Origin: Schizochytrium sp. TIO01
Lineage: Eukaryota; Sar; Bigyra; Thraustochytrida; Thraustochytriidae
DNA: 64,000 bases
Direction of reading: 5' to 3'
NCBI GenBank assembly: GCA_004764695.1
Contig: SMSO01000034.1
Location: 1,133,501 to 1,197,500, forward strand
Positions 7,613 through 62,204 of this stretch are shown one piece after another. Position numbers and translations under genes: made by a program. The notes below the pieces were generated by a model. The model was not told the DNA's origin. It worked only from the letters and a program-made list of their open reading frames with translations, and did not search any database. How positions within the stretch are numbered: position 1 is the first letter of the stretch; the number at the start of each line of letters is the position of its first letter.

Positions 7613-10600
7613 ATGCTGCGCGCGGAGGCCGCTGCTCTTGAGGCAGATCGCAACTCTGAGGCAGAGGCAGCGCAACGTTGGCAGCATGAACATCAACTTG
7701 GACAAGATATTAGAGATGAATTTGGAGCACAACAAGAACAAGTCTTGCAACAAAAGCAGCTGCGCCAACAAAAGCAACAAGAGAAGCAAGAGCAATTGCA
7801 TGAAGACTTGGATCTTCATCAAAAACGAGTGCAACAAATACAGCAAGACCACCAGTCTGAACAAGAAAAACTCCATGAAAAACAAAATATTCAAGATATA
7901 CATGTTCAAGTTCATGACCAAAAGCAAGAATTGCAACGTGAACAATTGAATAAACACCAAGATCTTCATCAGAAACAAGACGATGTTGTTATCGTTGGGC
8001 AGACGCAACCTTTTCGGAAAGACACAGACGGTGCAGAACTAGTTCAGGATGACTCTGATGACGAAGAAGATGACAAAAGGAATGTAGATGATGATGACGA
8101 AGATGACAACGAACACGAGGAGGATGGGGATGAGGATGAGGATGAAGATACTGAAGCGGAAGGAACCTACATGCGACCTGGGGCGACTTTAGCCTCTGCG
8201 ACAGGGGTATCTAAGACAACACACTTTGTCAAGGGAAAACAGGCCAAGCAGCACGCGCAGTGGCATCCTCAGGTACATCAAAATCAGCAAGTCCAACAAT
8301 ACCAGGATAGCGATGCAGGAAACCGGCACGCTAGGGCAAGATCAACGTTGCAAAGCCAGAAGCAGGTGAACTTTATGATAAATAAAAAGAAGCACAGCAC
8401 GTCACCAGCATCTGGATCAGCATCAATGGTCATTAGCCGTACGTCATCATTGCTTCAGCCAGACTCATCACATGATGATCTTACCGCACTTGCCAGAACT
8501 TCTACCCAGCAATCTGCCACTCAGACCAGAGATGTGGGCCAATCAAAATGGAAAGGCCGTGTACAGTGGCCACCTCCACCAATATCCACCACTGTACAGC
8601 GCACACGCAGTCTCTCTCGGAAAACATCACCGCCTCCCCAGCGCTCTGTGAGCTCAGACACCTATCCATCTTTAGAATCACCGAGCAAGCCACATGACTC
8701 GCCTTTTGACCCAAAAGACAAGACATTGGCTTTGTTCAAAAAAGGCTTTCGTCGCACCAAAACTGCCTCCTCGTGGGTCCCCAAGTCTCTTGCACCATCA
8801 TGCTACGGGTGCAAAACAAAGTTTTGGTGGCTCGCACCAAACTGGACAAAGCATCATTGTCGGATTGACGGAAATGTATATTGTAGTGCCTGCACGCAGC
8901 ACAGAATTTCTCTGGAACCTGGGGAAGAACCTGTCCGTGTTTGCAACTCTTGCTACTACAAAAAGCTCAAAGAAACTGGCATTGAGCGACAGGAAATGCC
9001 CAAGCACGTGAATACGGTGCTTGAGGAATCCTCGACATCGTGGATGCTTCCTGGAGAAGAGCTCGTAGGGAAATTCGAGCACATTTGGTTTGAGAATGAA
9101 CCTCATGGATCTGTGCTTCTCACTACGTTCCAACTGATCTTGTTTGATCCATCATCATCACTAAAAGCAGTGGCTCATATTCCGCTCATGAGCATCGAGC
9201 GTATCGAAATTTTGATTTACGACGCTTGCGAGGCCGGCGTCTTGAACATTCACTGCAAAAACTTTCGTTTTCTTCGACTTGTTGTATTTGGAATGGTTTC
9301 TGAACAACGGTTTGTGAAGTTTCATGAATTGGAGCACGCACTGGTTCGTCTAGCCTTTCCATCCGGGACATCATCCAAAGCGGAGACTTTTTCTTGCGTG
9401 CTGGATCATACCATTTTAAAAGGAATACCATCCGCTCCGGAACTCAACAACTTTTCTGGCTGTTGCTTAGACAACCATGTTAATGACCTTCAAGAACTAG
9501 AACGGCTTGTGAAGGATGTTCCTGGATGGCGAGTCTCCCGGGCAAACGAAAATTTCGAACTTTGTCCATCGTACCCACGTTTTCTTGCCGTACCTGCCAA
9601 AGTTAGTGATACGGAGTTAAAACTTGTGGCGGACTTTCGAATTCGCCGCCGCATTCCTATACTTTCGTGGATTGACCCTGTAATGAAGGTAGCGGTTTGT
9701 CGTTCGAGTCAACCCAAATCGGGCCCATGGTACAGACGCTCAATCGCAGATGAAAAGCTTATTCGTGAAGTTGCTCTTGCCAGCAAGTCTGGCCTGGTTA
9801 TTATTGATGCCCGACCCCCAGCAAATGCTAGTGCAAACCGAATCAAATCGGGCGGAGGTTTTGAGGATGTCATTAACTACAATAGTCACACAGGCCAGGC
9901 TCCTGTCTCAATCGAATTCATGAACTTGGAAAATACAAACGTCGTGCGGGCGAGTATGAATAAGCTCAAGCAGATAGTGGGAACCCGTCTTAAACGCGAA
10001 AGGAAATTTGTCCTCGGCGCGAATGGGAAATATGTCATGTCAGATGCTGATACACATCCTGGGGCACTTTCTCTTGATGACGAAGACGGCATTGAATTTG
10101 AAATTAGCTGGCTCACCAAGCTCGCTGAGACACGTTGGATACACCTTCTTGCATACATAATCAAGGCTACATGTCGTGTCATTCAAATTATCAAGGAAGA
10201 AAAAAAATGTGTGTTGGTGCATTGCTCTGACGGTTGGGACCGCACTGCGCAGGTAGTATCTCTCTCAATCTTGTGTATGGATAGCTACTATCGTACAGTA
10301 AAGGGCTTCATTGCGCTCTTGGAAAAGGAGTGGTTTTCGGTTGGTCATGCCATTCGCACCCGCAGTGCAACAGGGGCACCTCCCGGAGCAAAATCATCTC
10401 GCGAAGTGATCACGCACTCATCATCCCATGTCGCTCCTGTTTTGGTGCAATTCATGGATTGTGTTTGGCAACTTACCCAACAGTTTCCGAAAAGCTTTGA
10501 GTTTAATGGGAAATTACTCGTCACTGTCCTGGATCGTGTATACTCTGCTCAGTTCGGCAATTTCCTTGCAAACTCTCGTAAAGAAGTTCTTGATGACAAC

Positions 10601-11173
10601 TTACTCTTTACATCTCATTGTGCCTGGTCAGATATATCTCAGGATCCGACTCCATACATGAATTCTTTGTACGACGTTGCAACCTCCCCAGCAACGCTGC
10701 ATCCATCATTCAGTACAAAGCAACTGCAACTGTGGAGAGATTACTATCTTCGTTTCGACGAAAGTTGTCGCGATGAGGGTCTCCCTGCAAAAACTATCCC
10801 GATTGCGCCTTCAAATCGTGTGGGTCCTTGTGTTCAAACTAAGCATACAACACCAGACGAGCCACGCCCTAAACCACGTCATGCTTCCGTCGTTGAGCTT
10901 TATGTTGACAGCTCCATGTACAATGCCGATACAGACTCAGTAGGATTACGCTCAGATGTAGAAGGCGAGTTCCCCCTTGAGGAAGAGTCTGCGCGTTCCC
11001 CACTTGATCCAAGCTCTGCGACGAAGAGTTTGGAAAGTCTAAGGTCGACATCAATGTCAGAGGGGACTTCCGCACATGGATTGCATTCTCCCGGGCATGC
11101 ATCTACGGGGCCAGGCGAGTCGGACGAGAGGCCTGCTACCCCTCCTCAGCGTAGCTTATCAAATCTAGGCTGA
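7613..11173 (+). CDS. FYVE-GRAM myotubularin phosphatase (3-phosphoinositide phosphatase)
   Basis: 1186 residues from the ATG at 7613 (context CGCCATGC). Residues about 40-125 are a Gln/His/Lys-rich coiled coil, and about 140-185 are strongly acidic. Residues about 395-455 form a FYVE-type zinc finger: C397, C400, the KHHCR core, then C-x2-C and C444-x2-C447. A GRAM/PH-type domain follows at about 475-600, and a myotubularin phosphatase domain from about 625 to 1060. The active site is CSDGWDR, with Cys871 and the Arg six residues on, so the CX5R loop is complete and catalysis is expected. Myotubularins remove the 3-phosphate from PI3P and PI(3,5)P2 on endosomal membranes. Oddities: FYVE precedes GRAM, whereas in animal MTMR3/4 it is C-terminal. 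The finger has Asp where one zinc Cys is usual and lacks the WxxD Asp. The tail is Ser-rich. Convergent with the sulfotransferase at 12035. Confidence 0.95.
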   Translation: MLRAEAAALEADRNSEAEAAQRWQHEHQLGQDIRDEFGAQQEQVLQQKQLRQQKQQEKQEQLHEDLDLHQKRVQQIQQDHQSEQEKLHEKQNIQDIHVQVHDQKQELQREQLNKHQDLHQKQDDVVIVGQTQPFRKDTDGAELVQDDSDDEEDDKRNVDDDDEDDNEHEEDGDEDEDEDTEAEGTYMRPGATLASATGVSKTTHFVKGKQAKQHAQWHPQVHQNQQVQQYQDSDAGNRHARARSTLQSQKQVNFMINKKKHSTSPASGSASMVISRTSSLLQPDSSHDDLTALARTSTQQSATQTRDVGQSKWKGRVQWPPPPISTTVQRTRSLSRKTSPPPQRSVSSDTYPSLESPSKPHDSPFDPKDKTLALFKKGFRRTKTASSWVPKSLAPSCYGCKTKFWWLAPNWTKHHCRIDGNVYCSACTQHRISLEPGEEPVRVCNSCYYKKLKETGIERQEMPKHVNTVLEESSTSWMLPGEELVGKFEHIWFENEPHGSVLLTTFQLILFDPSSSLKAVAHIPLMSIERIEILIYDACEAGVLNIHCKNFRFLRLVVFGMVSEQRFVKFHELEHALVRLAFPSGTSSKAETFSCVLDHTILKGIPSAPELNNFSGCCLDNHVNDLQELERLVKDVPGWRVSRANENFELCPSYPRFLAVPAKVSDTELKLVADFRIRRRIPILSWIDPVMKVAVCRSSQPKSGPWYRRSIADEKLIREVALASKSGLVIIDARPPANASANRIKSGGGFEDVINYNSHTGQAPVSIEFMNLENTNVVRASMNKLKQIVGTRLKRERKFVLGANGKYVMSDADTHPGALSLDDEDGIEFEISWLTKLAETRWIHLLAYIIKATCRVIQIIKEEKKCVLVHCSDGWDRTAQVVSLSILCMDSYYRTVKGFIALLEKEWFSVGHAIRTRSATGAPPGAKSSREVITHSSSHVAPVLVQFMDCVWQLTQQFPKSFEFNGKLLVTVLDRVYSAQFGNFLANSRKEVLDDNLLFTSHCAWSDISQDPTPYMNSLYDVATSPATLHPSFSTKQLQLWRDYYLRFDESCRDEGLPAKTIPIAPSNRVGPCVQTKHTTPDEPRPKPRHASVVELYVDSSMYNADTDSVGLRSDVEGEFPLEEESARSPLDPSSATKSLESLRSTSMSEGTSAHGLHSPGHASTGPGESDERPATPPQRSLSNLG

Positions 11174-26770: not shown

Positions 26771-28156
26771 TTAGAGGCCGAGGATGAGGCGCTCAGGGTC
26801 CTCAATCTTCTCCTTGATGGACTTGAGGAAGGTGACACTCTCACGGCCATCGATGAGACGGTGATCGTAGGTGAGGGCGATGTACATCATGGGGCGGGAG
26901 ACAACCTGGCCATCGACGACGACAGCGCGGTCCTTGACGCCGTGCATGCCAAGAATGGCAGACTGGGGCATGTTAAGCATGGGGGTGGAGAAGAGGGAGC
27001 CGAAGACGCCACCGTTGGTGATGGTGAAGGTACCACCGGCCATCTCCTCCATGGTGAGCTTGTCAGCGCGAGCCTTGACAGCAAACTCGCCAATAGTGCG
27101 CTCGATGTCAGCAAAGTTCATGTCCTGGCAGTTGCGGATGACAGGCACAACAAGACCGCGGGGAGCAGAGACGGCGACGGAGATATCAACGTAGTCACGG
27201 TACACAATCTCCTTCTCGTCAATGACGGCGTTGACAGCAGGGACCTCCTGGAGAGCCTTGGTGGCGGCAGCAACGAAGGCAGACATGAATCCGAGCTTGA
27301 CTCCGTGGACCTTCTCAAACTGGTCCTTGTACTTCTTGCGGAGGTTCATGAGCTTGCTCATGTCGACCTCGTTGAAGGTGGTGAGGAGAGCGGCAGTAGA
27401 CTGGGCATCGACAAGACGCTCAGCAATCTTGCGGCGCATGGGGGACATCTTGACGCGCTTCTCAGTGCGGGCGCCCTGGTGAGCAGTGCCGGGGACCTGG
27501 GTGGTGGACTCGCCCTTAGGCTGCTGGGGTGCCTTGGGTGCCTCCTTGGCGGGTGCCGGAGCAGCAGCCTTGGGTGCCTCGGGGGCGGCGGCAGCAGGGG
27601 TAGCAGCGGGGGCAGCGGGGGCAGCGGGGGCCTCCTCCTTGGCGGCAGCAGCCTTGGGAGCACCACCACCGGGGGCGTCGGCCTTCTTGAACTTGACGAG
27701 GGGCTCGCCAACCTTGACCTCGGAGTCAACCTCAACGTAGATCTCAACAATCTCACCGGGCTTCTCAACACGGACAGGGAAGGTGACCTTGTCAGTCTCC
27801 ATGGTGGCGATCTCATCGTCCTCGAAGCAGTAGTCACCGACAGACTTGGTCCACTCAACGACCTCACCCTTGGTGATGGAGTCACCGAGGGGCGGCACGT
27901 TCATGACCCACTCGTCAGCATCCGCGGAAAACCAGCGGCGCTCGAAGCCCATGGGAGCGCAGCGTGCGGCAAGAGGAGCGACGTTGCGCATGGTGGGGAG
28001 GCCAGAGGAGGCCACGCCAGCCACGCGGCCGAGGGCCATCAGGGAGCGGCCTCCGAGCACGCGGGAGGAGGAGGACGAGAACTGACGGCTGCTGCCGCGC
28101 ATGACATGATCCCGCGAAATGGCCACCACGCGGGCGGAGCGCGAAGCGGAGAGCAT
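26771..28156 (-). CDS. DLST: Dihydrolipoyllysine succinyltransferase, E2 of 2-oxoglutarate dehydrogenase, mitochondrial
   Basis: 461 residues from the ATG at 28156. Residues 1-77 are an Arg/Ser-rich mitochondrial presequence ending [11 protein letters not shown]. The lipoyl domain spans about 82-156, with the lipoylated Lys123 in METDKVTF. An Ala/Pro-rich linker covers about 158-225. There is no E1/E3 peripheral-subunit-binding domain, as in other eukaryotic DLST. The acyltransferase domain fills about 232-461, with His432 and Asp436 in the YDHRLIDG active-site motif. The enzyme transfers succinyl from lipoamide to CoA in the TCA cycle. Codons are G+C-rich and highly biased compared with neighbouring genes, suggesting high expression. 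That bias also opens a 495-codon frame on the opposite strand, which is a shadow. Confidence 0.97.
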
Positions 28157-29903
28157 CGTCTTGTTTGCTGCTTTTTCTACTGCTACGTAGACTGCTGCTG
28201 CTGGAGAGCGATGGAAGCTGGAGCTTGCTTTAAGTCTCTGGAGAGAGCTGCTCGCTGCTCGACGCGCAAGGCGATCGGGCTTTGCTTTGCTGCTGCTCTG
28301 CAGAGAGATTGTGAGAGAGAAACAGTGCTCAAAGAAGAGATCATTTAGTTAGTTAGCTAGTTGGCTAGTTAGCTGATTAGTTAATTGAGTAATTGTTCGA
28401 TTCAGTATTTTATCTACTCTCGTTATTTATTTACTCCTTTCACTAAGGCAGCAATCTATAAAGAGAGGAAGAAACAAAGATAATGTATGTTCAATCTGCT
28501 TATCTTTTCAACGAAGTGATGGTTTGTTTCCTGAAAGATAGTCATCCTTCTTCTTCTTCCTCCAATATATGTATGGTAAACGAATAGTTAGTTATCTGCA
28601 TAACAAACTCGTAATATCTCTGTTTCTATCTATTGATATGATAATTAATTGTTCATTTTTGTTTATCTCTGCGAAGAATTGTTTTCATTTCCTTCACTTT
28701 CTCAGTTTTAAAATGCTTTTCGCTTTCTTTTTCCTGTTTCAAAGCTTACGAATACGGAGCGCAATGGCGTTATAGAAAGTGAGGCAGACGATAGATACGT
28801 CATCAATAACACCAGCACCATGACCAACAACGAGACAATAAGCACATAGCTTACTAGAAGCAAGTAAGCAAGCAAGTGCTCTCAAGACGATGATCGAAGA
28901 GGAAAGGCAGTGCGAGTGAGGGTGTGAATGTCAGAGAGCCTATTATGAAGTGGCGCTTTTCGCTTTTTGCCTGCGAGAATTCATCGTTTTTAGCGATAAC
29001 TTTTATTTCAACTAAAAGAATGAAACTTAGAAATGAGGAGGGAAGGAGGCAAGGAGGTGAAGAATCTATCTATATATATATACCTTCTCTTCTCAGCAGC
29101 TGTTAATTTTCTCTTGAAATAAAATAAATAAATATTTTGTTAATGAATTAATTGATTGCCTGAGACGACGTGAGCCTGCAGTGTCATTCGCATGCTTCAC
29201 TTGCGAGGGCACAGCAATCGCCGCCTCCGATGGCAGGCTTCCGTTCTCTTGCGAAAGCCACCTCTCTCAGTTGACTAAGCTGCTGGGTGGCATGGCATGC
29301 ATTCGTGTACTTCGGCGATGGTCATGACTCCTGCTCTAAATGTTTTAGTTTTATCATTTCCTCTTTATCATTTCTTTTGAATCAAAATCAAAATTAGTTT
29401 CTGGCTCTGCTGCGCTAGGTAGGTAGTCAGACGATTTGATTTACACGCACGCAGATCAATCGATTGATGATACACACGCACACACATACCATCTTTGAGG
29501 CTTCTCCGCTTCCTCTGAGCCCATCTTACATGATGTATGCATAACTTCATTCACGAACTCATTCTACTTTCACCTCTGCAAAGAGGAGGAGAAGATGGAA
29601 TTGCGAATGAATGAACGAATGAATGAATGTCCTAACTAGTCGATAAGTGGTCGGTTTCCTCCTCGTTTCCAAGGAAAATAATTCAATGCGTTAATGCGTT
29701 GCCAACAGAAAGAAGAAGAAGCCATCACACGATCGTGAACCTCAAGCGCCACCGCACCGGTGAGTGCATTCATTCCGCCAAAGTTTAGCTATCGAACTAA
29801 GATAGATCCACCTCGTTTCTGCCGAGCCTCTTCCTCACCGTGCTCGATGCACGCACGTTCTTTCCACCACCTGGACACGACTGCTTTTATTTCACATCCC
29901 TCG

Positions 29904-51343: not shown

Positions 51344-54205
51344 GTCTTTCACCCAAGCCCAGCGTCTTATTTCGCAGTGCTGGACGCTTTGGCGTGTGCC
51401 TCGTGAACCTTCTCACAATAGAGGCAGGGTGAGCAAGGATTGTATTACAATAAAGGCTCTGTACGTTCTTGTACTTCTCTATTGTAGACGTCCACCACTG
51501 CGCAGCTGCTGTTGATGCCAGAACTTCTAGGCTCACCAAGCTGGTGGTGCGCTTCTTGTTTGAGCTTATCCGCTTTATTCTACCTCTCGCGAGATTTCAC
51601 ACAAGACGTTATCAAGGTCTAATTTAACAGAGACAACACAAGTTTACCATATCAGAGTCGTCCAATCGCAACAGACGACTCAGCTGTGCTAGGCTGTCAA
51701 GGCCAAAGACGGCGTTCGAACAGCTTGCACTGCTCCTCAAACAATATACACTTATGCAAACTAACACGGTGAAATAGACATAGAAGCAGGAGAGAGGGAT
51801 GGAGAAAGCCCACTGGGGTCTCTGCTGCTCCTGGGACACCTCCTCTCAAGTTCTCTTACCCTTCACCACCGTTTCACTAGAAGTAGAAGTCGCAAGAGCA
51901 ATTTATTCTTGTCGTAGGCACAGTAAAAAATGCAGTGCCTAAGCTTAAATATATTTCTCAACCAAGGGCACCTACCTTAAAGCACCAAGTTCTCCAACCC
52001 AAACAAATTTCAAGACGCGCACTCTCACCAACTATGTCTAACCAATACAACCCAACGACCAAGTCCAGCCTTAAAGTCAGTCAAGCCCTCGCTACTTCAA
52101 CAAGCTCTCCCGAGCGAAAGCAAGCTATCAAACAACCAAAAGGACTCCGCCATGAGCAGTGAAGTGCACCCCCACTCACTCTCATATCCCATCAACTCCC
52201 AGGTTCAACGGCCATCGGGTTGCGCAGTCCACAAATAAAAAAAAATAAAAAACATAATCGAAGAGCGCGTGGCCTCGAGACACTACCAACCAACCCGAAA
52301 ATAACACACTCGCTAGCTCACATCATCGAAACCAAAATAGACCAAGCAGCCAAGCGAAGAAGATCTGGCGGATTTAGAGCGCTTCGAGGGCAAGATAATA
52401 AGTGCCAGGGGAGGAGGAGCAAGCGGTCTTTAGGTTTTGCAAGAAGAAGCACCTGCGAAGTCCTACCTCAATGCAATGTGCAGTCTCTAGAGTACTGCTT
52501 AAGGAAATGTGCAGTATAGGTGGATAGATAGGACTCCATAGTGGTTCTCAAAGTGAGCTGGAATTTTGTTACGTGGAAGCTTTTCAATTGAAAACAGTTT
52601 TAAAGATTGGTCTTTTCATTTGTTTGTTTGGTTTTCCAAGTCAAAATTAACGTTTTAAAGAAGAATGTGACATCAAATTGGCCAAATGATTCATACTTCA
52701 TCTTCACTTTAACTATAACTATATATATATACTTTATCTATTATTTTAAAAAAAAAGTTTCTCAATTAGATTTAAAAAGAACATTAAAAAACATTAAAAA
52801 TATAGATATATAGATAATGAAGAAAACGAAAAGAAAGGAAAATGAACTCGGGAAAGGATGAAAGCGTCGATAATAAATATTCCCTGAATGAGATATGAAT
52901 GGGTTTTCTTCTTTTCTCAAACTTAAAAAAAAAAAAGTAAAAAAAAAAAAGTAAAAAGGTAAAAAGAATGGAAATCACTATATTGCGTAGTTAGCCGGTA
53001 CTAGTACACTTTAGATAGATAAGCAAAATGTTCAATGCTTAGCTTTAGTTTTTACTAGCATCTGCGTAGCTGGTACTACCTAGTTAGCGTCAAGTCATGA
53101 AAGCCATTTATGTGAGAAGATGGGCAAAGCAAAGTTCTTTTCAATTAATTGGTGATGGATGACGCCAATTCTAAGGATGAGGAGCGCCGCGGAGACTGCA
53201 ATTGTTTGTTAATGTATTGGAGATGGTCAATTGGCGGAGGAAGATGAAGAGCTGAAGACGATTAATCACACGGAGAGAGAGCGCTAGATAACTATGGGTT
53301 GGAGGCGGTGGCATGAAACGCCAGAGAGCTAGCTAGCTTGCTTGCTGTGAGTGAACGCAGCATGTCCTTTCATGCCTGAAAAGGCCAAAACTCTGGAGAT
53401 AAATTAACAAACGAGGGTTCTCGGAAAGTCTGCGCCGAAGAGCGAACAATGGAGCACAGACTGACTGACTGATTTAATTTGACTTAACTCACTTACTCAC
53501 TCATTCCTGTCACAAGGAGGCGTCACCGATCGCTCGCTGTCCTCTCATGCACCATAACGGTGGCATTGTCTGTCATGAACGAATCAATGCACGAATCTCT
53601 TGTGAGGATCGAGGAAACCAATAGGCAGTCAGGCAGTCAGGCAGTCAGTCAGTCAGTCGCCTCGGAAATTGGTGAAATGTCCCCTACGAGCGAAGCGTGG
53701 AAGGAAATCTTTGAGCAAGAGCACTCGCTCTGAGGGGTTTTAGCAGGTACCTACGAACTGACTAGCTGCCTATGGGGGGGCATTCATTCACTCATTCATT
53801 CATTCATTCATTCATTCATTCATTCATTCACTGACTCATTCATTCATTCATTCATTCATTCATTGACTCATTCATTCATTCATTCATTCATTCATTCATT
53901 CATTCATTCATTGACTCATATTTAGTAGGCGTGTATTACATTACATACACATTACACCTTTTGGTGGCATTACAATGCTGCAGTTCTGTATTAGATTGCG
54001 CTGCTACGTAAGGTGGAGGCAGGCTTGGAAGCCGACAGGCGGCTGCTGAGACGCAGAAGGCGGGCAGACAAATCAAGAACTGCAGCGCCGGGCCTCGCAG
54101 AGCAAAGTCCCCGTGGCAGCGGCCCTGGCGGCGAGCGCATGGTGAAAGGCACGCTGGCCAAGAAGCCCTGGCAAAGGCGGCTTTGACGAGGCAGGATTGT
54201 CAAAA
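51344..54205. other. Spacer with repeats
   Basis: It includes the kinase 5' region (to about 51600), A-runs at 52921-52966, CAGT units at 53620-53660 and the ATTC array (listed). A GGTACCTAC palindromic site is at 53744-53756. I see no gene. Confidence 0.5.
53781..53920. repeat. CATT tetranucleotide array
   Basis: About 33 units of CATT with scattered GACT interruptions. Confidence 0.95.
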
Positions 54206-55429
54206 ATGTTCAGGGCGACAACTACGTGTGCTGGTAACACGAGGGGACTCCTTTGGAGCGGAGAGGCTGCTGCAAATGTCGAGGGGAAGGCTCGAGCAGG
54301 ACTCCAGATGCGGCAACTGGGGCAAAGGCTGGGGAACAATGTCGGACGCGCAAAAGTTGGAGACATGAGGACAATCGTGAGAAAGCGAAATATTACGGTA
54401 AATTTGCCGAGAGTGGAGACGCTGTGCTCGCGTCTACGCTCCAAGCTTGGACCTGCCAAGCTCAACTGGATCTTGCACACCGGCAATATATTGGCCATTG
54501 GGGCAGCATCGAGCGATGACATGTTGCAGCTACGAACATGTATGGCGTGCGCAAGTGGATGCAGCATCCTTTTTAATATGCTGCAACCGAGGCCTTTGTG
54601 GAATCCCGCTGCGTGGAGCTTATTTTTTCTGACTATGCATAGCTATCAGATTCGTCGTATTCTCCTTGAGAACCAGCCTTTACAGCTTTCCCCTCGTGAG
54701 CATGAACTGTATGAACGGGCTTTTATGCCTTTCGGCTTCACTCCACGAACCTTCAAAACTCTGATGCGCAACGCAGACTGCCAGTGGGAAGTCATTGAGC
54801 CTGGCGATGCGATTGCCAAAGCCGGGCACAATCAGAAAAGAGCTGCATTCGTAATGGATGGCACAGTGCAAGTCTTCAGCTCACCAGATCTCATGGTAAA
54901 TCGGATTTCAGTGATGCCCGAGAAAACGCATGGTGGTTGGACTGCTCACCCTTGGCATTCGGAAATTGACGAACGCGGGATTCGTCGCTGGAAGCAAACT
55001 CTCATCGCAGAAACTCGTGTTCATTTAGTAAGCTTTGATATTCGCAAGTTTTCCGAATACGTGCAGCAAAACCCAAAGCTCATTATGGCATCTGAGCGCT
55101 TGCAAATTGAGGACCTCTGGGGAAGATTACGTGGCTCGCATGCTGAAAGATTACGTCAAATCGATGAACTCAAGGCTCAACTTGATGAGCAAGTTCTTGA
55201 GGCGTATTTTGCCATGATCCAAATCGCCGTTTCGGACGGAATTCTCACGCATGAGGAAATCGAGAGTTGCGATAATTATCGCAGAGAACATGGCATCACT
55301 GATGCACAGCATGATAAGGTCATGCACCAGGTTGGCTGGTGCAGCTCAGATTTTACACCTGGCACATGCACACAGTTTGCTCGCTCCAAGTTCTTGATGA
55401 AGTCTACCCCGCAGTCAGCTACTTCTTGA
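54206..55429 (+). CDS. Popeye-like membrane protein with C-terminal helical domain
   Basis: 407 residues from the ATG at 54206; Met54 (ATG at 54365) is an alternative. The Arg-rich, Gly/Ala-rich first 50 residues could be a mitochondrial-type presequence. Residues about 84-148 contain three short hydrophobic segments. Residues 132-190 (LWNPAAWSLFFLTMHSYQIR, then LSPREHELYERAF) match the conserved entry of the Popeye domain, which continues as a cyclic-nucleotide-binding-like beta fold to about 285. Popeye proteins bind cAMP through a conserved D-S-P-E-W motif. That motif is not visible here (the region around 243-254 reads GGWTAHPWHSEI), so ligand binding is doubtful. Residues 325-378 (VSDGILTHEEIESCDNYRRE) look like a TerB-type helical module. 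Family call likely; function unknown. Confidence 0.75.
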   Translation: MFRATTTCAGNTRGLLWSGEAAANVEGKARAGLQMRQLGQRLGNNVGRAKVGDMRTIVRKRNITVNLPRVETLCSRLRSKLGPAKLNWILHTGNILAIGAASSDDMLQLRTCMACASGCSILFNMLQPRPLWNPAAWSLFFLTMHSYQIRRILLENQPLQLSPREHELYERAFMPFGFTPRTFKTLMRNADCQWEVIEPGDAIAKAGHNQKRAAFVMDGTVQVFSSPDLMVNRISVMPEKTHGGWTAHPWHSEIDERGIRRWKQTLIAETRVHLVSFDIRKFSEYVQQNPKLIMASERLQIEDLWGRLRGSHAERLRQIDELKAQLDEQVLEAYFAMIQIAVSDGILTHEEIESCDNYRREHGITDAQHDKVMHQVGWCSSDFTPGTCTQFARSKFLMKSTPQSATS

Positions 55430-58122: not shown

Positions 58123-59143
58123 TCTTTGGTTTTTGCAATGACGCAAACCAAATTGCTCGCCCCAGCTACAGATCAAAAAGATATGAAAGGTTTTGTAAGA
58201 TAAGATGCGCCACGCCTAACGTAAGTGAAGGGCCGTCTTGGTGTTTGATGGTCCTAGGCCGGGCTCTTCTGTCCGAAAATGCAACCGTGCGTTGTCTCGC
58301 TCAAGTAGCGATTTTGCAAGTTAGACTTCGTCCTTCCAAGGTTGTGCCCGGAAACCGCAAGCGCTTGCTTCAGGCCCTGTCCTCAGCGAACTCGTTTGGA
58401 GTGCACCAAGGTTTGCTCACTGCCTTAGGTGTCTGGTTGCTCTATTGATGGTGGCCACATTACTTCTTCGCTTTTTGAGAGCGTAATCATAGGGTACCAT
58501 GGCTACACTCTCGCTCACCGCTGCAGAATCTGAATTTAGCAGCAAAGAGGTCTTTTCCTTGGGTTCATTTTCCCTACAGTTTCTTTGAATGCTGCTGACA
58601 AGTTTCTAACCCACCCTGCTGGCCAAGCGAGAACAAAATATATTGCTTTTTGCTCAATATGTGGTGGTTAGTAGATGAGCGTTCTCCATTGTTATACATT
58701 ATATATTTTAATTTTTAAAAATTATTTTAAAAGAAAAGAAAAGATGCAGCATGACGCGGCCGCCATCGCTAAGGCATACATACATACGCATGAATACCCA
58801 TCGTGCTTCACTTTGACTATGATGCAGCTTCTGCTTTCTGAAACCTCTTTCTTACTTATTGCGCATGCATATACTTTCTGCTTTTTGACTGCAAGGACCT
58901 AAGAAATGCCACCTGTATTTCGCCTTCTGTTGTTTGTCACGTTCTTTATTTTTCGTAATACTACCAACCTACTCGTTTATTAGAAGGGAACAGGGCTTAT
59001 ACTAAAGTGCTTGTGACTTTGAACGGAAGAAGACAGCTACAGGTGGAGAGATTGATAGATAACTCGAAGAGAAGGTTTGTGTTATCTATAGTTAAGGAAA
59101 AAGAAAAGACATTCGCAAGAATGATCTAGTACCTAGGTTATTC
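58123..59143. other. Spacer
   Basis: A plus frame at 58250-58445 is open with balanced composition but no ATG context or motif. The rest is A+T-rich. No gene supported. Confidence 0.45.
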
Positions 59144-61879
59144 TTATTCATCATCATCATCGTCATCGCTAGAGTCAGAAGAAATATCAGAAAATTGAGG
59201 CTTGGAACCATCCGGTTCTTGTTCTTCATCGGAATCTGGAGGTTGCTCTTCAAGCGCGAACCAAGATGGTAGTGAGGCTCGCGAATATAAGTCAGTGACA
59301 ACATCAGAAGGCTGCACTCGGACGATGCGGAGAATACCCAGACCATCGGACTCAGAACCTTTATGAGGGGGGGTACTGGAAAGGCGGAGTTTCGGTTCCA
59401 TCTCATTCCGCGGCTTGCGCACCTTGGTGATTGCAGTCTCAGCAGCGCCACAAAGAACTAACTGTACTCCGCTCTCTTGAAACTTATCCACGAAACGATC
59501 GCGAACGCTGGCTGGCATGACGTGAGAAATATGAGACTCTTGCCCTGCAGCTTGATCTTCTTCGAAAAGCCACATGTGATGAGAGAAAATAATGACGTGA
59601 TGCGCACAAACCTTTCCTTCAAGTACCATATGTTCAAGCCACTTTGCTTGTTTCTCGGCCTCCTCGTCGCCACCTTCGTGGTCAAGCTTGGCCAGCTGGA
59701 AAGAATCAATTACAATCACAAGAACACCCTGAATGTACAGCGAATAATACATATCACCGAATGCTTCCTTATAATCAGCAGCAGGACGGCCGTCAGGGAC
59801 ACACGCAAGGGCAATATTCATATCTAGACGGCAGAGCGCAGGTTTAAGCACAGAAGCTTCGCCGAGGCTTCCTCCGCACACGACAAGACGAGGAGCGGGT
59901 TCAAGGCGGTTAATGCGCCGCATTGTCGCTTCGACTTGATCCGTATCAAGATCTGCTAAAGATCCGAGGTGAACAAGGAGAAATGAGTCCTTAAACTTGT
60001 TTTCCTCAGCCTCAGACATGCCAGCAAAACCATGCCCTGCAGCTCGTTGAAAGCGCGCAGCCTCCTCGCTCGGAAAGAAAAGCTTAAAGATGTGTTGATT
60101 CCGTAAAGCAAGACGTTGTGCAAGCATTCCCATCAATGTATTACGTACCTTTGTGTCTGTCTTGGGCTCTGCAAAGGTCCCTGGAGTCTTTGCCCAATCT
60201 GGCAAGGTTTTCGGCTTTGGAAATTCCGGCAAACGAACATTAGACCCTGGTCCTTTTAATGGAGGAGGTGGGCCTGTGAGGACCTGCACGACACCCTCTG
60301 CGCAAAGCTCAAACAATGTAGGAACGGGCTTCACTGGCTGTTGAAGGATAGCTGCAAAATCTACACCTTCAAACGCCGGATGTTGTTTAATGGATGCCAT
60401 GCAATCATTGGCACCAAGACGCTCGCTGGGTTCTTCGACAAAAATCTTGCTCAGGAGATCTTGAAGGTCTATAGAGAAATAGTTTGGCATTTCATAATTG
60501 AGCGCTTGGGTTTTCAAGAAAGTCAAGTATGGACTATTTCCCTTGAAGGGGATGCGACCACTATGCAGCTGGAAGAGTGTGGCTCCCAACGCCCACAAAT
60601 CCAGCGCAAAGGTGGGAGCTGCTTTGCCTGCTATGGCTTCAGGACTCATGTATTCAGGTGTGCCTACAAAATGAGGGCCATTCAGCTCCTTATCCTCTGT
60701 ATCGTAAGCAGTACCAAAGTCAATGAGTTTGAGACGCTCTACTCGGCCACCCGATTCTGGCTCGGAGAACAGCATCATGTTTTCGGGTTTAATGTCACGA
60801 TGGATGACACCTTGCGTCTGCAGATACTCGAGCGCATTTATGATTTGGGCACTGAAGAAAAGAGCCTCTGAGGGCCTCAAAGACACAAGCGCAGCGCGTC
60901 CATAGCGCAATCGGGCCCACAACTCACCAGCAGTTGCCAATTCGGTAACATAGTATAAGTTACGTACATCCTGCATTGTGAAAAACAATTTCACAACATT
61001 AGGGTGGCTAAGGCGAAGTAAAAGACGTTTCTCCATCACTAGCTCATTGTGTAGATTTGGGTGGCGGCGAGACATGCGCTTAGCCTTTTCCTTATCCACA
61101 GATTTGATCGCAAAGCGTTCTCCTGTTGCCTTAAAGGTAGCACTGTGCACCATGGAATAATTGCCCTCTCCAAGAAGCTCATCCACCTCAAACATAGACA
61201 AGGACAATTTTGTTGGGCAGCCCTTGATAGTGCTGTGTTTTTCCAGGTACGTATCAATTTTAGTTTGTGCAGACTGAAGTCCTGTTTGTTTCTCCAACAA
61301 CTCCACCTGCTTGCGGAGATACGCGTTTTCGGGATCAAGTTCAGCCGCCAGGCAGTAAGTGTCCCGGGCCTCCTCAAGCATGCCAAGCTCCACAAGAGCC
61401 TGAGCTTTTCGGTGGTGACCCTTGACCCAGCCTGGGCGAAGCGCAACGGTTTGCTCAGCATCTCGCAGTGCTTCGTCAAACCTAGCAAGTTTTGCCAAGG
61501 CCGCGGACCTGTTGCACAGTAACGTTGCAATGCTCTCTAGATTGGCTGCCACACTCCGAGCATCTTCACGAGCACCGGTTGTCATTGCAGCCTTCGCGAT
61601 GACTGCTGCTGCACTGGAATTTGTGTCTTCGGTATTATCTCCGACTACCATGCTTGTATCCACATTTATGTCCTTCTCGTCCACGCCTGCTAGATCCGAG
61701 TTCTTTCCAAGAGATCTCGACACATTCAAGGCATTCGCAAGCGCACTGTTGCTCCCTGAAAGCTCACAGCATTCAGAGAGCGCCTGTGAATAGTAGTCTA
61801 CAGCATGCTCGAAATTCCCAGCCTTGAAAGCGGCGTTGCCTTGCTCTCGAAGTAAGCCCACGCCGTCTGGGCTCGCCAT
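59144..61879 (-). CDS. TPR - PDK1-like AGC kinase - CPPED1-like pseudophosphatase fusion
   Basis: 911 residues from the ATG at 61879. Residues 7-36 and 115-185 are TPR helices (REQGNAAFKAGNFEHAVDYY; WVKGHHRKAQALVELGMLEE), split by an acidic loop. The kinase is at 230-503: GEGNYSMV loop (237-244), Lys259, HRDIKPEN (Asp362), DFG 387-389, FVGTPEYMSPE (405-414). It looks active and is closest to PDK1, which phosphorylates AGC-kinase activation loops; no PH domain is present. Residues about 632-865 match the CPPED1/CSTP1 branch of calcineurin-like phosphoesterases: MRRINRLEPAPRLVVCGGSL, FGDMYYSLYIQGVLVIVIDS, FSHHMW, VDKFQESGVQLVLCGAAETA. The metal ligands are mostly lost (GG for GD at 669-670, PDGR near 695 for GNHD, GAAE at 811-814 for GHxH); only the FSHH histidines remain. 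The tail is acidic. It is probably a signalling kinase with a dead phosphatase-fold module. Confidence 0.92.
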   Translation of the reverse strand: MASPDGVGLLREQGNAAFKAGNFEHAVDYYSQALSECCELSGSNSALANALNVSRSLGKNSDLAGVDEKDINVDTSMVVGDNTEDTNSSAAAVIAKAAMTTGAREDARSVAANLESIATLLCNRSAALAKLARFDEALRDAEQTVALRPGWVKGHHRKAQALVELGMLEEARDTYCLAAELDPENAYLRKQVELLEKQTGLQSAQTKIDTYLEKHSTIKGCPTKLSLSMFEVDELLGEGNYSMVHSATFKATGERFAIKSVDKEKAKRMSRRHPNLHNELVMEKRLLLRLSHPNVVKLFFTMQDVRNLYYVTELATAGELWARLRYGRAALVSLRPSEALFFSAQIINALEYLQTQGVIHRDIKPENMMLFSEPESGGRVERLKLIDFGTAYDTEDKELNGPHFVGTPEYMSPEAIAGKAAPTFALDLWALGATLFQLHSGRIPFKGNSPYLTFLKTQALNYEMPNYFSIDLQDLLSKIFVEEPSERLGANDCMASIKQHPAFEGVDFAAILQQPVKPVPTLFELCAEGVVQVLTGPPPPLKGPGSNVRLPEFPKPKTLPDWAKTPGTFAEPKTDTKVRNTLMGMLAQRLALRNQHIFKLFFPSEEAARFQRAAGHGFAGMSEAEENKFKDSFLLVHLGSLADLDTDQVEATMRRINRLEPAPRLVVCGGSLGEASVLKPALCRLDMNIALACVPDGRPAADYKEAFGDMYYSLYIQGVLVIVIDSFQLAKLDHEGGDEEAEKQAKWLEHMVLEGKVCAHHVIIFSHHMWLFEEDQAAGQESHISHVMPASVRDRFVDKFQESGVQLVLCGAAETAITKVRKPRNEMEPKLRLSSTPPHKGSESDGLGILRIVRVQPSDVVTDLYSRASLPSWFALEEQPPDSDEEQEPDGSKPQFSDISSDSSDDDDDDE

Positions 61880-62204
61880 GTCGATCTGTCCGAGTCGGAG
61901 CCGAAGGCGTTAGCGAAGCGGCAGCGGCAGCGACAGTGGGTAGGGTGACAACACACACCGAGAAGGGGAGGTGATGAAGGTAAAGGCTTCAATTCCCCGT
62001 TGGCAGCAAATACTAGCGGCCTTTGGAGATGAGGATTTACTCATACTAGTAGTACTCCTCCAAACTGTTCTTCAACGTTTTTTTGTTCTTATTTGCCTAT
62101 AAGTCCAGTAACTTAAGTTATCTAATGACTTAGAATTTAACCTATAAAATTTGCAAAACTTGCATTTCCTATAATGACTTGGGGGTAAAGTTTAAAGACA
62201 AATC
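61880..62204. other. Short spacer / promoter region of the kinase fusion
   Basis: G+C-rich next to the kinase start, then A+T-rich. No gene seen. Confidence 0.6.

Follow-up and report, generated by a model that had tools for sequence, protein, structure and literature searches.

Does the long open reading frame at positions 59144 to 61879 (minus strand) of the 64,000-nucleotide stretch of Schizochytrium sp. TIO01 DNA analysed here (contig SMSO01000034.1; hereafter, the window) encode a PDK1-type kinase fused to a CPPED1-like domain that has lost its metal site, as an original prediction made from the bare sequence had proposed, and what might such a protein do? AGC kinases have PDK1 as their common activator, an enzyme that its PH domain ordinarily anchors to the membrane lipid PIP3. 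We find that a single frame of 911 codons joins an N-terminal TPR part, a PDK1-like kinase and a domain derived from CPPED1 whose metal site is unusable, followed by an acidic tail, so that the core of the prediction holds, with corrections to its account of both the kinase and the metal site. All features of the protein described below lie on the minus strand, and genome-wide comparisons refer to a genome of 64,063,054 bases on 37 contigs, in which the window sits on contig C33.

The frame runs from ATG to TAA without an internal stop over the predicted span, encoding 911 amino acids. A codon-usage score trained on 13 open reading frames of known reading from the same genome (8499 codons) placed this frame at the top of the six possible frames in 7/7 segments, including the linker between the kinase and the C-terminal domain. 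This linker (residues 521-630; 59990..60319), which is proline-rich by eye, matches no Pfam family and has no PH domain, scored +0.259 bits/codon with both other forward frames negative. Similarly, residues 631-875 (245 codons) scored +0.253 bits/codon, the other forward frames being negative and holding 6 and 19 stops. Across the two TPR segments, an antisense frame came close to this score but is interrupted by stops. Given the unbroken frame and a coding bias that runs through the linker, the kinase and the C-terminal domain belong, on sequence evidence, to one coding unit. The alternative that two genes were misread as one is very improbable, since no stop separates the domains and the coding bias continues unbroken from one to the other.

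The C-terminal domain (residues 631-875; 59255..59989) is not recognized by standard family models. Residues 540-911 matched no Pfam family, residues 600-875 matched no NCBIfam family and returned a single chance-level match (E 1.6) in a sequence search of the PDB, and none of the 41 matches to PF00149 in the genome fell on this domain. A comparison of residues 540-911 with the whole genome (limit E 10) recovered, besides the query itself, only the locus L040 (C33:258183-258746; E 1.2e-4), which encodes a calcineurin-like phosphoesterase of 455 amino acids with Metallophos and Myb-like Pfam matches. L040 presents the motifs ADTQFG, GDL, GNHDVG, FTHIPPF and GHYHRN, which we take to be the landmarks of CPPED1. 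In a two-sequence blastp, the window domain and L040 shared 27% identity over 195 amino acids, with an E-value of 5e-14 that refers to this single comparison. The CPPED1 metal motif is given as D-GD-GNH[E/D]-H-GHxH in the available part of a published description (PMC8366450). As an observation on L040 itself, its C-terminal Myb-like domain (PF13921, 25.1 bits against a cut-off of 22.9) joins a phosphoesterase to a DNA-binding domain.

Bacterial relatives were gathered by scanning prokaryote genomes, starting from L040 and a Parabacteroides homologue, with two peptide patterns, one of which contains the first-strand Asp; the patterns matched 502 stretches, 41 of which encode relatives. A CPPED1-family profile built from the 41 bacterial rows together with L040 and L041 (L040 thus scoring high by construction) assigned the window domain 55.4 bits, with 52.7 bits for its best stretch, against a top score of 7.4 bits among 2000 shuffles, which rules out a chance resemblance and bears out the predicted relation to CPPED1. 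When the profile was used to rank 1835 open reading frames from the same genome, the whole window frame (51.9 bits) came after L040 and L027 (57 bits) and just above L025 (47.3 bits), L027 and L025 being purple acid phosphatases by eye. Among the same 1835 frames, blastp returned L040 alone below E 0.9, while the rows that follow, which include metallophosphatase loci, lie at E 0.97-9.7; L025 and L027 were not among the best 15 rows, which extend to E 9.7. Furthermore, 40 of the 41 bacterial relatives matched the window domain at E <=0.05 (in a small set), the miss being the incomplete L048.

We then inferred a 44-row tree; L048 and L071, in which the open frame ends inside the match, were left out of the alignment, tree and motif counts, and L057 was also left out of the alignment. 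The window domain fell among the CPPED1 rows beside L040 (support 86/62), on an end branch of 3.88 that was flagged as unsure, and L025 and L027 were split from the 42 other rows, the window included, at 100/100. A general metallophosphatase in place of CPPED1 was rejected in view of this split and of the blastp preference for L040, the profile scores of L027 and L025 being mixed evidence. The pairing of the window with L040 was flagged as two long branches meeting, and direct descent from L040 is therefore not claimed. When searched against the PDB, a family profile from which the window was excluded (L040 plus 24 of the 41 bacterial rows) matched both Rv0805 and purple acid phosphatases, indicating that the CPPED1-family fold is calcineurin-like. 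Sequence profiles answer well the question of whether residues 632-865 relate to calcineurin-like phosphoesterases, and, as judged by profile, blastp, alignment and tree, the C-terminal domain is homologous to the CPPED1 family. Scans of viral contigs with CPPED1 queries and with the C-terminal part of the window protein found no relative, and tblastn of that part against plasmids gave no match.

The metal motif was then counted over 41 relatives, comprising 39 bacterial rows, L040 and L041. Each of its eight positions is invariant in 41/41 relatives, the invariance of the first-strand Asp resulting partly from selection because one search pattern held that residue, and the window keeps one of the eight, His767 (59579..59581). 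The first-strand metal Asp is replaced by Ser640 (59960..59962) and the GD Asp by Gly670 (59870..59872), the window reading G669-G670 exactly as the original prediction had it. The predicted change of GHxH to GAAE (G811 to E814) is equally confirmed, with A812-A813-E814 (59438..59446) replacing HxH and both His lost. The third predicted substitution, of GNHD by PDGR, proved to be a deletion instead: the alignment shows a 15-column gap with its deletion point at V694-P695 (59795..59800), and PDGR (695-698) comes after the gap. As read from this alignment, the metal site of the window domain cannot work as it does in its relatives, and, with a single residue of the metal motif left, we describe the domain as a CPPED1-derived pseudoenzyme and not as plain CPPED1. 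That it is still an active metallophosphatase, a reading to which the retained H767 lends itself, is extremely improbable and was rejected, since the other seven motif residues, all invariant among the relatives, are changed or deleted.

Residues 230-495 (60395..61192) match the Pfam Pkinase family (E 2.5e-52), and the catalytic residues are all present (K259, E283, H360-R361-D362, N367 and D387). In a sequence search of the PDB, the kinase ranked PDK1 chains highest at 162 bits, followed by 4c0t ('likely protein kinase', 141) and PKA (138), and the next chain other than the PDK1 rows scored 22 bits lower; the best-scoring entry, 3nun_A, bears the deposited name 'PkB-like' and was taken as human PDK1 because its scores equal those of named PDK1 chains. 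PADLOC and NCBIfam kinase matches were regarded as generic. The PIF pocket is the site by which PDK1 holds on to the hydrophobic motif of a substrate, and the PDB alignment indicates that residues of this pocket are retained: T301 and Q303, which we take to be the counterparts of human T148 and Q150, and L308, the counterpart of L155, with human K115 and R131 corresponding to K263 and K284. The central pocket residue of human PDK1 is L155, according to the accessible text of PMC8986801, which also reports that the S241A substitution lowers PDK1 activity on Akt 50-fold. In the alignment with PDK1 chains, the position of this activating Ser241 is occupied in the window kinase by His403 (60671..60673), leaving no phosphorylatable residue there. 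The prediction of an intact PDK1-like kinase is therefore upheld for the catalytic residues but not for the T-loop.

Neither a PH domain nor an AGC C-tail (Pkinase_C) was matched by Pfam in the window protein. Certain PDK1s are naturally devoid of a PH domain. The genome also encodes a canonical PDK1 on another contig (L094, C13:5427263-5428003), which shares 49% identity with human PDK1 over the matched part, contains a PDK1-type PH_3 domain (97.3 bits, Pfam) and, by eye, has Thr at the Ser241 position; since this canonical protein exists separately, the window kinase is not the main PDK1 of the genome. In a 34-row kinase tree, the window kinase joined human PDK1 and L094 with support of 93/90 on a long branch of 1.71, and its highest identity within the tree set was to human PDK1 (38%). 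We use the term PDK1-like kinase, and not plain PDK1, because it has neither the T-loop Ser/Thr nor the PH domain.

The N-terminal TPR repeats of the original prediction are confirmed by the best Pfam stretches of three TPR models, at residues 9-36, 118-148 and 155-185. These define a first motif (residues 7-40; 61760..61861; Pfam TPR_2) and, beyond an insert, motifs 2 and 3 (residues 118-185; 61325..61528). A PDB search with residues 1-210 ranked HOP/STIP1 first and the isolated HOP TPR1 (1elw) fifth. TPR domains of the carboxylate-clamp type bind the acidic C-terminus of HSP70/HSP90, and in the window protein, read against the HOP TPR1 alignment, all five clamp positions are filled (R11 and N15 in motif 1; N123, K153 and R157 in motifs 2 and 3). 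The sole departure from the published clamp rule, K5N9-N6-K2R6 in the portion available of PMC2939883, is the change of K to R at the first position (R11). On these residues, the TPR part probably docks on HSP70/HSP90. The genome holds ten HSP70-family matches, of which four had their C-termini read (L120, VEEVD; L121, HDEL; L119, EEKKK; L122, MDVD), and three HSP90 matches, ending in MESVD (L086), KLEL (L087) and ELLKK (L088). Possible clamp targets therefore exist in the genome, given the tails of L120 and L086.

The insert between TPR motifs 1 and 2 spans 77 residues (41-117; 61529..61759), and residues 41-115 have a coding score of +0.148 bits/codon. It overlaps an in-frame GT-AG segment of 222 nucleotides (61546-61767) with a GTGAGC donor, one of several possible introns from that donor. 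Splicing of this segment would remove most of the insert and leave the clamp residues untouched. Its loss would close up the interrupted array into one compact domain of three TPR motifs.

How might a protein of this architecture work? With somewhat less than even confidence, we propose that it is a diverged, PH-less PDK1 paralogue that docks on chaperones and uses its dead CPPED1 domain as a metal-free docking scaffold, the architecture being read from sequence and the function inferred from it. The TPR part would tether the enzyme to HSP70/HSP90 via their acidic C-termini, and the kinase would phosphorylate the T-loop of those AGC kinases that have a hydrophobic motif suited to the PIF pocket. 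In the place usually taken by the PH domain of PDK1, the dead CPPED1 fold may keep the protein-binding face of CPPED1, so that recruitment by chaperone and protein contacts would take the place of PIP3. As the residue at the Ser241 position cannot be phosphorylated, activity would not rely on trans-autophosphorylation at that site; it would be either unregulated or low and governed by partners. More speculatively, the C-terminal tail (residues 876-911; 59147..59254), which in translation is acidic and Ser-rich and ends in DDDDDDE, might occupy the protein's own clamp in an off state like that of PP5.

Two of these steps have parallels in known proteins. By docking on HSP70/HSP90 through its TPR part, PP5 can be brought to its substrates and freed from autoinhibition (PMC11259706). 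VPS29 of retromer is reported as a metallophosphatase-related fold that acts as a metal-independent scaffold (PMC3101248), although it belongs to another subfamily and is a separate subunit with no kinase fusion.

Several results weigh against this proposal. For the C-terminal domain, the window keeps 15 of the 39 non-metal columns whose conservation reaches 85% of rows or more; the scaffold is thus not retained significantly better than the metal motif (15/39 vs 1/8, Fisher p 0.23), decay of the whole domain stays compatible with the data, and a selective loss of catalysis is not claimed. The domain could accordingly be vestigial: a CPPED1 gene, or a copy of one, would have been fused by accident, would have lost its catalysis and would now be decaying with no role of its own. 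Besides the 24 near-invariant non-metal positions that are also lost, the great length of the branch, at 3.88 changes per column, would fit this account; however, the domain has stayed open with coding bias over its 245 codons, and its hydrophobic strands and last strand, ILRIVRV, still align with the relatives. We regard such a vestige as rather unlikely. For the chaperone step, the only HSP90 with a cytosolic-type end (L086, C13:2825898-2827403) terminates in MESVD and not in MEEVD.

For the kinase, a genome search with human PDK1, in which 138 of 384 candidates were scored, placed the window locus 14th (160.9 bits), with 13 kinases of the same genome ahead of it. Furthermore, the PDK1 grouping in the kinase tree sits on a long branch and is not decisive, and the approximately unbiased (AU) test did not reject a topology that places the window kinase outside the remaining AGC kinases of the sample (p-AU 0.151). 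Together with the missing PH domain and the T-loop His, these results would suit a diverged AGC kinase whose likeness to PDK1 is not due to descent. Such an origin nevertheless seems unlikely, as the closest solved structures are those of PDK1, human PDK1 gives the highest identity in the set, Pkinase_C is not matched, and a tree joining the window kinase to the other AGC kinases with the two PDK1s outside was worse (p-AU 0.040). In keeping with the prediction, PDK1 is the nearest kinase among solved chains, but the window kinase is probably a diverged PDK1-like paralogue, the canonical gene lying elsewhere. L094 and six others of the 13 kinases ranked above the window locus were scanned with Pfam. 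PX domains were found in L089 and L091, and an AGC C-tail scored above its cut-off in L089, L090 and L092 and slightly below it in L093 (20.1 vs 20.9); L097 had neither. Tailed AGC kinases, the substrates expected under the docking-scaffold proposal, are thus present in the genome. One of them, L092 (C6:2322044-2322862), combines its AGC C-tail with an N-terminal Myosin_TH1 domain (87 bits), which binds lipid and actin.

A further possibility concerns the lost metal site itself, which might now be a metal-free pocket for a phosphopeptide, a nucleotide or an inositol lipid, making the domain a ligand sensor that replaces the lipid role of PH. The location of the domain at the PH position suits this idea, as does, in the available part of PMC8366450, the classing of human CPPED1 with class III cyclic nucleotide phosphodiesterases and its binding of PI3K-AKT pathway proteins. 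The loops lining the site, however, are among the most changed or deleted parts of the domain, and we consider a ligand sensor distinctly unlikely.

Set beside known systems, the window protein resembles PDK1, including L094, in having it as the closest kinase domain, in keeping the equivalents of T148, Q150 and L155 and the catalytic residues, and in showing no AGC C-tail, and differs from it in lacking PH, in the T-loop His in place of Ser/Thr and in its added TPR and pseudo-CPPED1 parts. To CPPED1/CSTP1 (calcineurin-like, of the class III phosphodiesterase type), including L040, its sole match in the genome, it is homologous over most of the domain, up to the last strand; unlike them, it has kept a single metal-motif residue, has lost the GNHD loop and is fused behind a kinase. 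In L040 itself the motifs are intact, and a Myb-like domain follows at the C-terminus. PP5 and HOP likewise have TPRs with all clamp positions, whereas the window clamp is joined to a kinase, has R for K at its first position and is interrupted by the 77-residue insert after motif 1.

Fusions of kinases with phosphatases have been described in oomycetes. In the accessible portions of the sources, Phytophthora infestans has kinases fused to PP2C and PhoD phosphatase domains, the latter in a PhoD-STE kinase (PMC3019232), and P. sojae has five PPMs with kinase domains (PMC10925823). Rice Os06g06760 combines a carboxylate-clamp TPR with a kinase and a U-box (PMC2939883, in part). These proteins share with the window a kinase in one chain with either a phosphatase domain or a carboxylate-clamp TPR. 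The oomycete fusions involve other phosphatase families and, in the same portions, are not reported as dead and include no PDK1-CPPED1 pair. The literature searched, which lay outside most subscription journals and is no proof of absence, yielded no fusion of PDK1, TPR and calcineurin-like phosphoesterase. Within that literature, the predicted lack of any described fusion of this kind holds for the PDK1-CPPED1 pair; kinase-phosphatase fusions as such have precedents, and what is new is the combination of TPR, PDK1-like kinase and CPPED1-derived pseudoenzyme. The carboxylate clamp, canonical L094, T-loop His, intact CPPED1 of L040, Ser640, retained H767 and oomycete precedents all go beyond what had been predicted.

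Elsewhere in the window, positions 7613-11173 (plus strand) encode a myotubularin-type phosphatase with a FYVE finger ahead of it and HCSDGWDRT present, and positions 54197-55429 (plus) encode a Popeye-domain (POPDC1-3) protein (41.5 bits). A 495-amino-acid open frame at 26861-28348 (plus) runs antisense to a lipoyl-domain 2-oxoacid dehydrogenase acyltransferase gene (26771-28156, minus) and is most likely a by-product of codon usage. An Rfam search of the window gave no match, and no informative repeats were found in 59000-62000.

Taken in its boldest form, the architecture may mean that a PDK1 lineage traded lipid control for chaperone control, with a dead CPPED1 domain in place of PH reading or docking AKT-type substrates and a clamp TPR tying the kinase to HSP70/HSP90. 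We hold this as a whole to be rather improbable. If true, the fold of an AKT-dephosphorylating enzyme would have been turned into the docking arm of the kinase family that adds the AKT phosphate, a natural rewiring of a pathway by domain replacement with a pseudophosphatase drawn from that pathway's opposing branch. It would also provide a test case for how dead metallophosphatases become scaffolds, for which the intact paralogues of both halves in the same genome, L094 and L040, offer controls.

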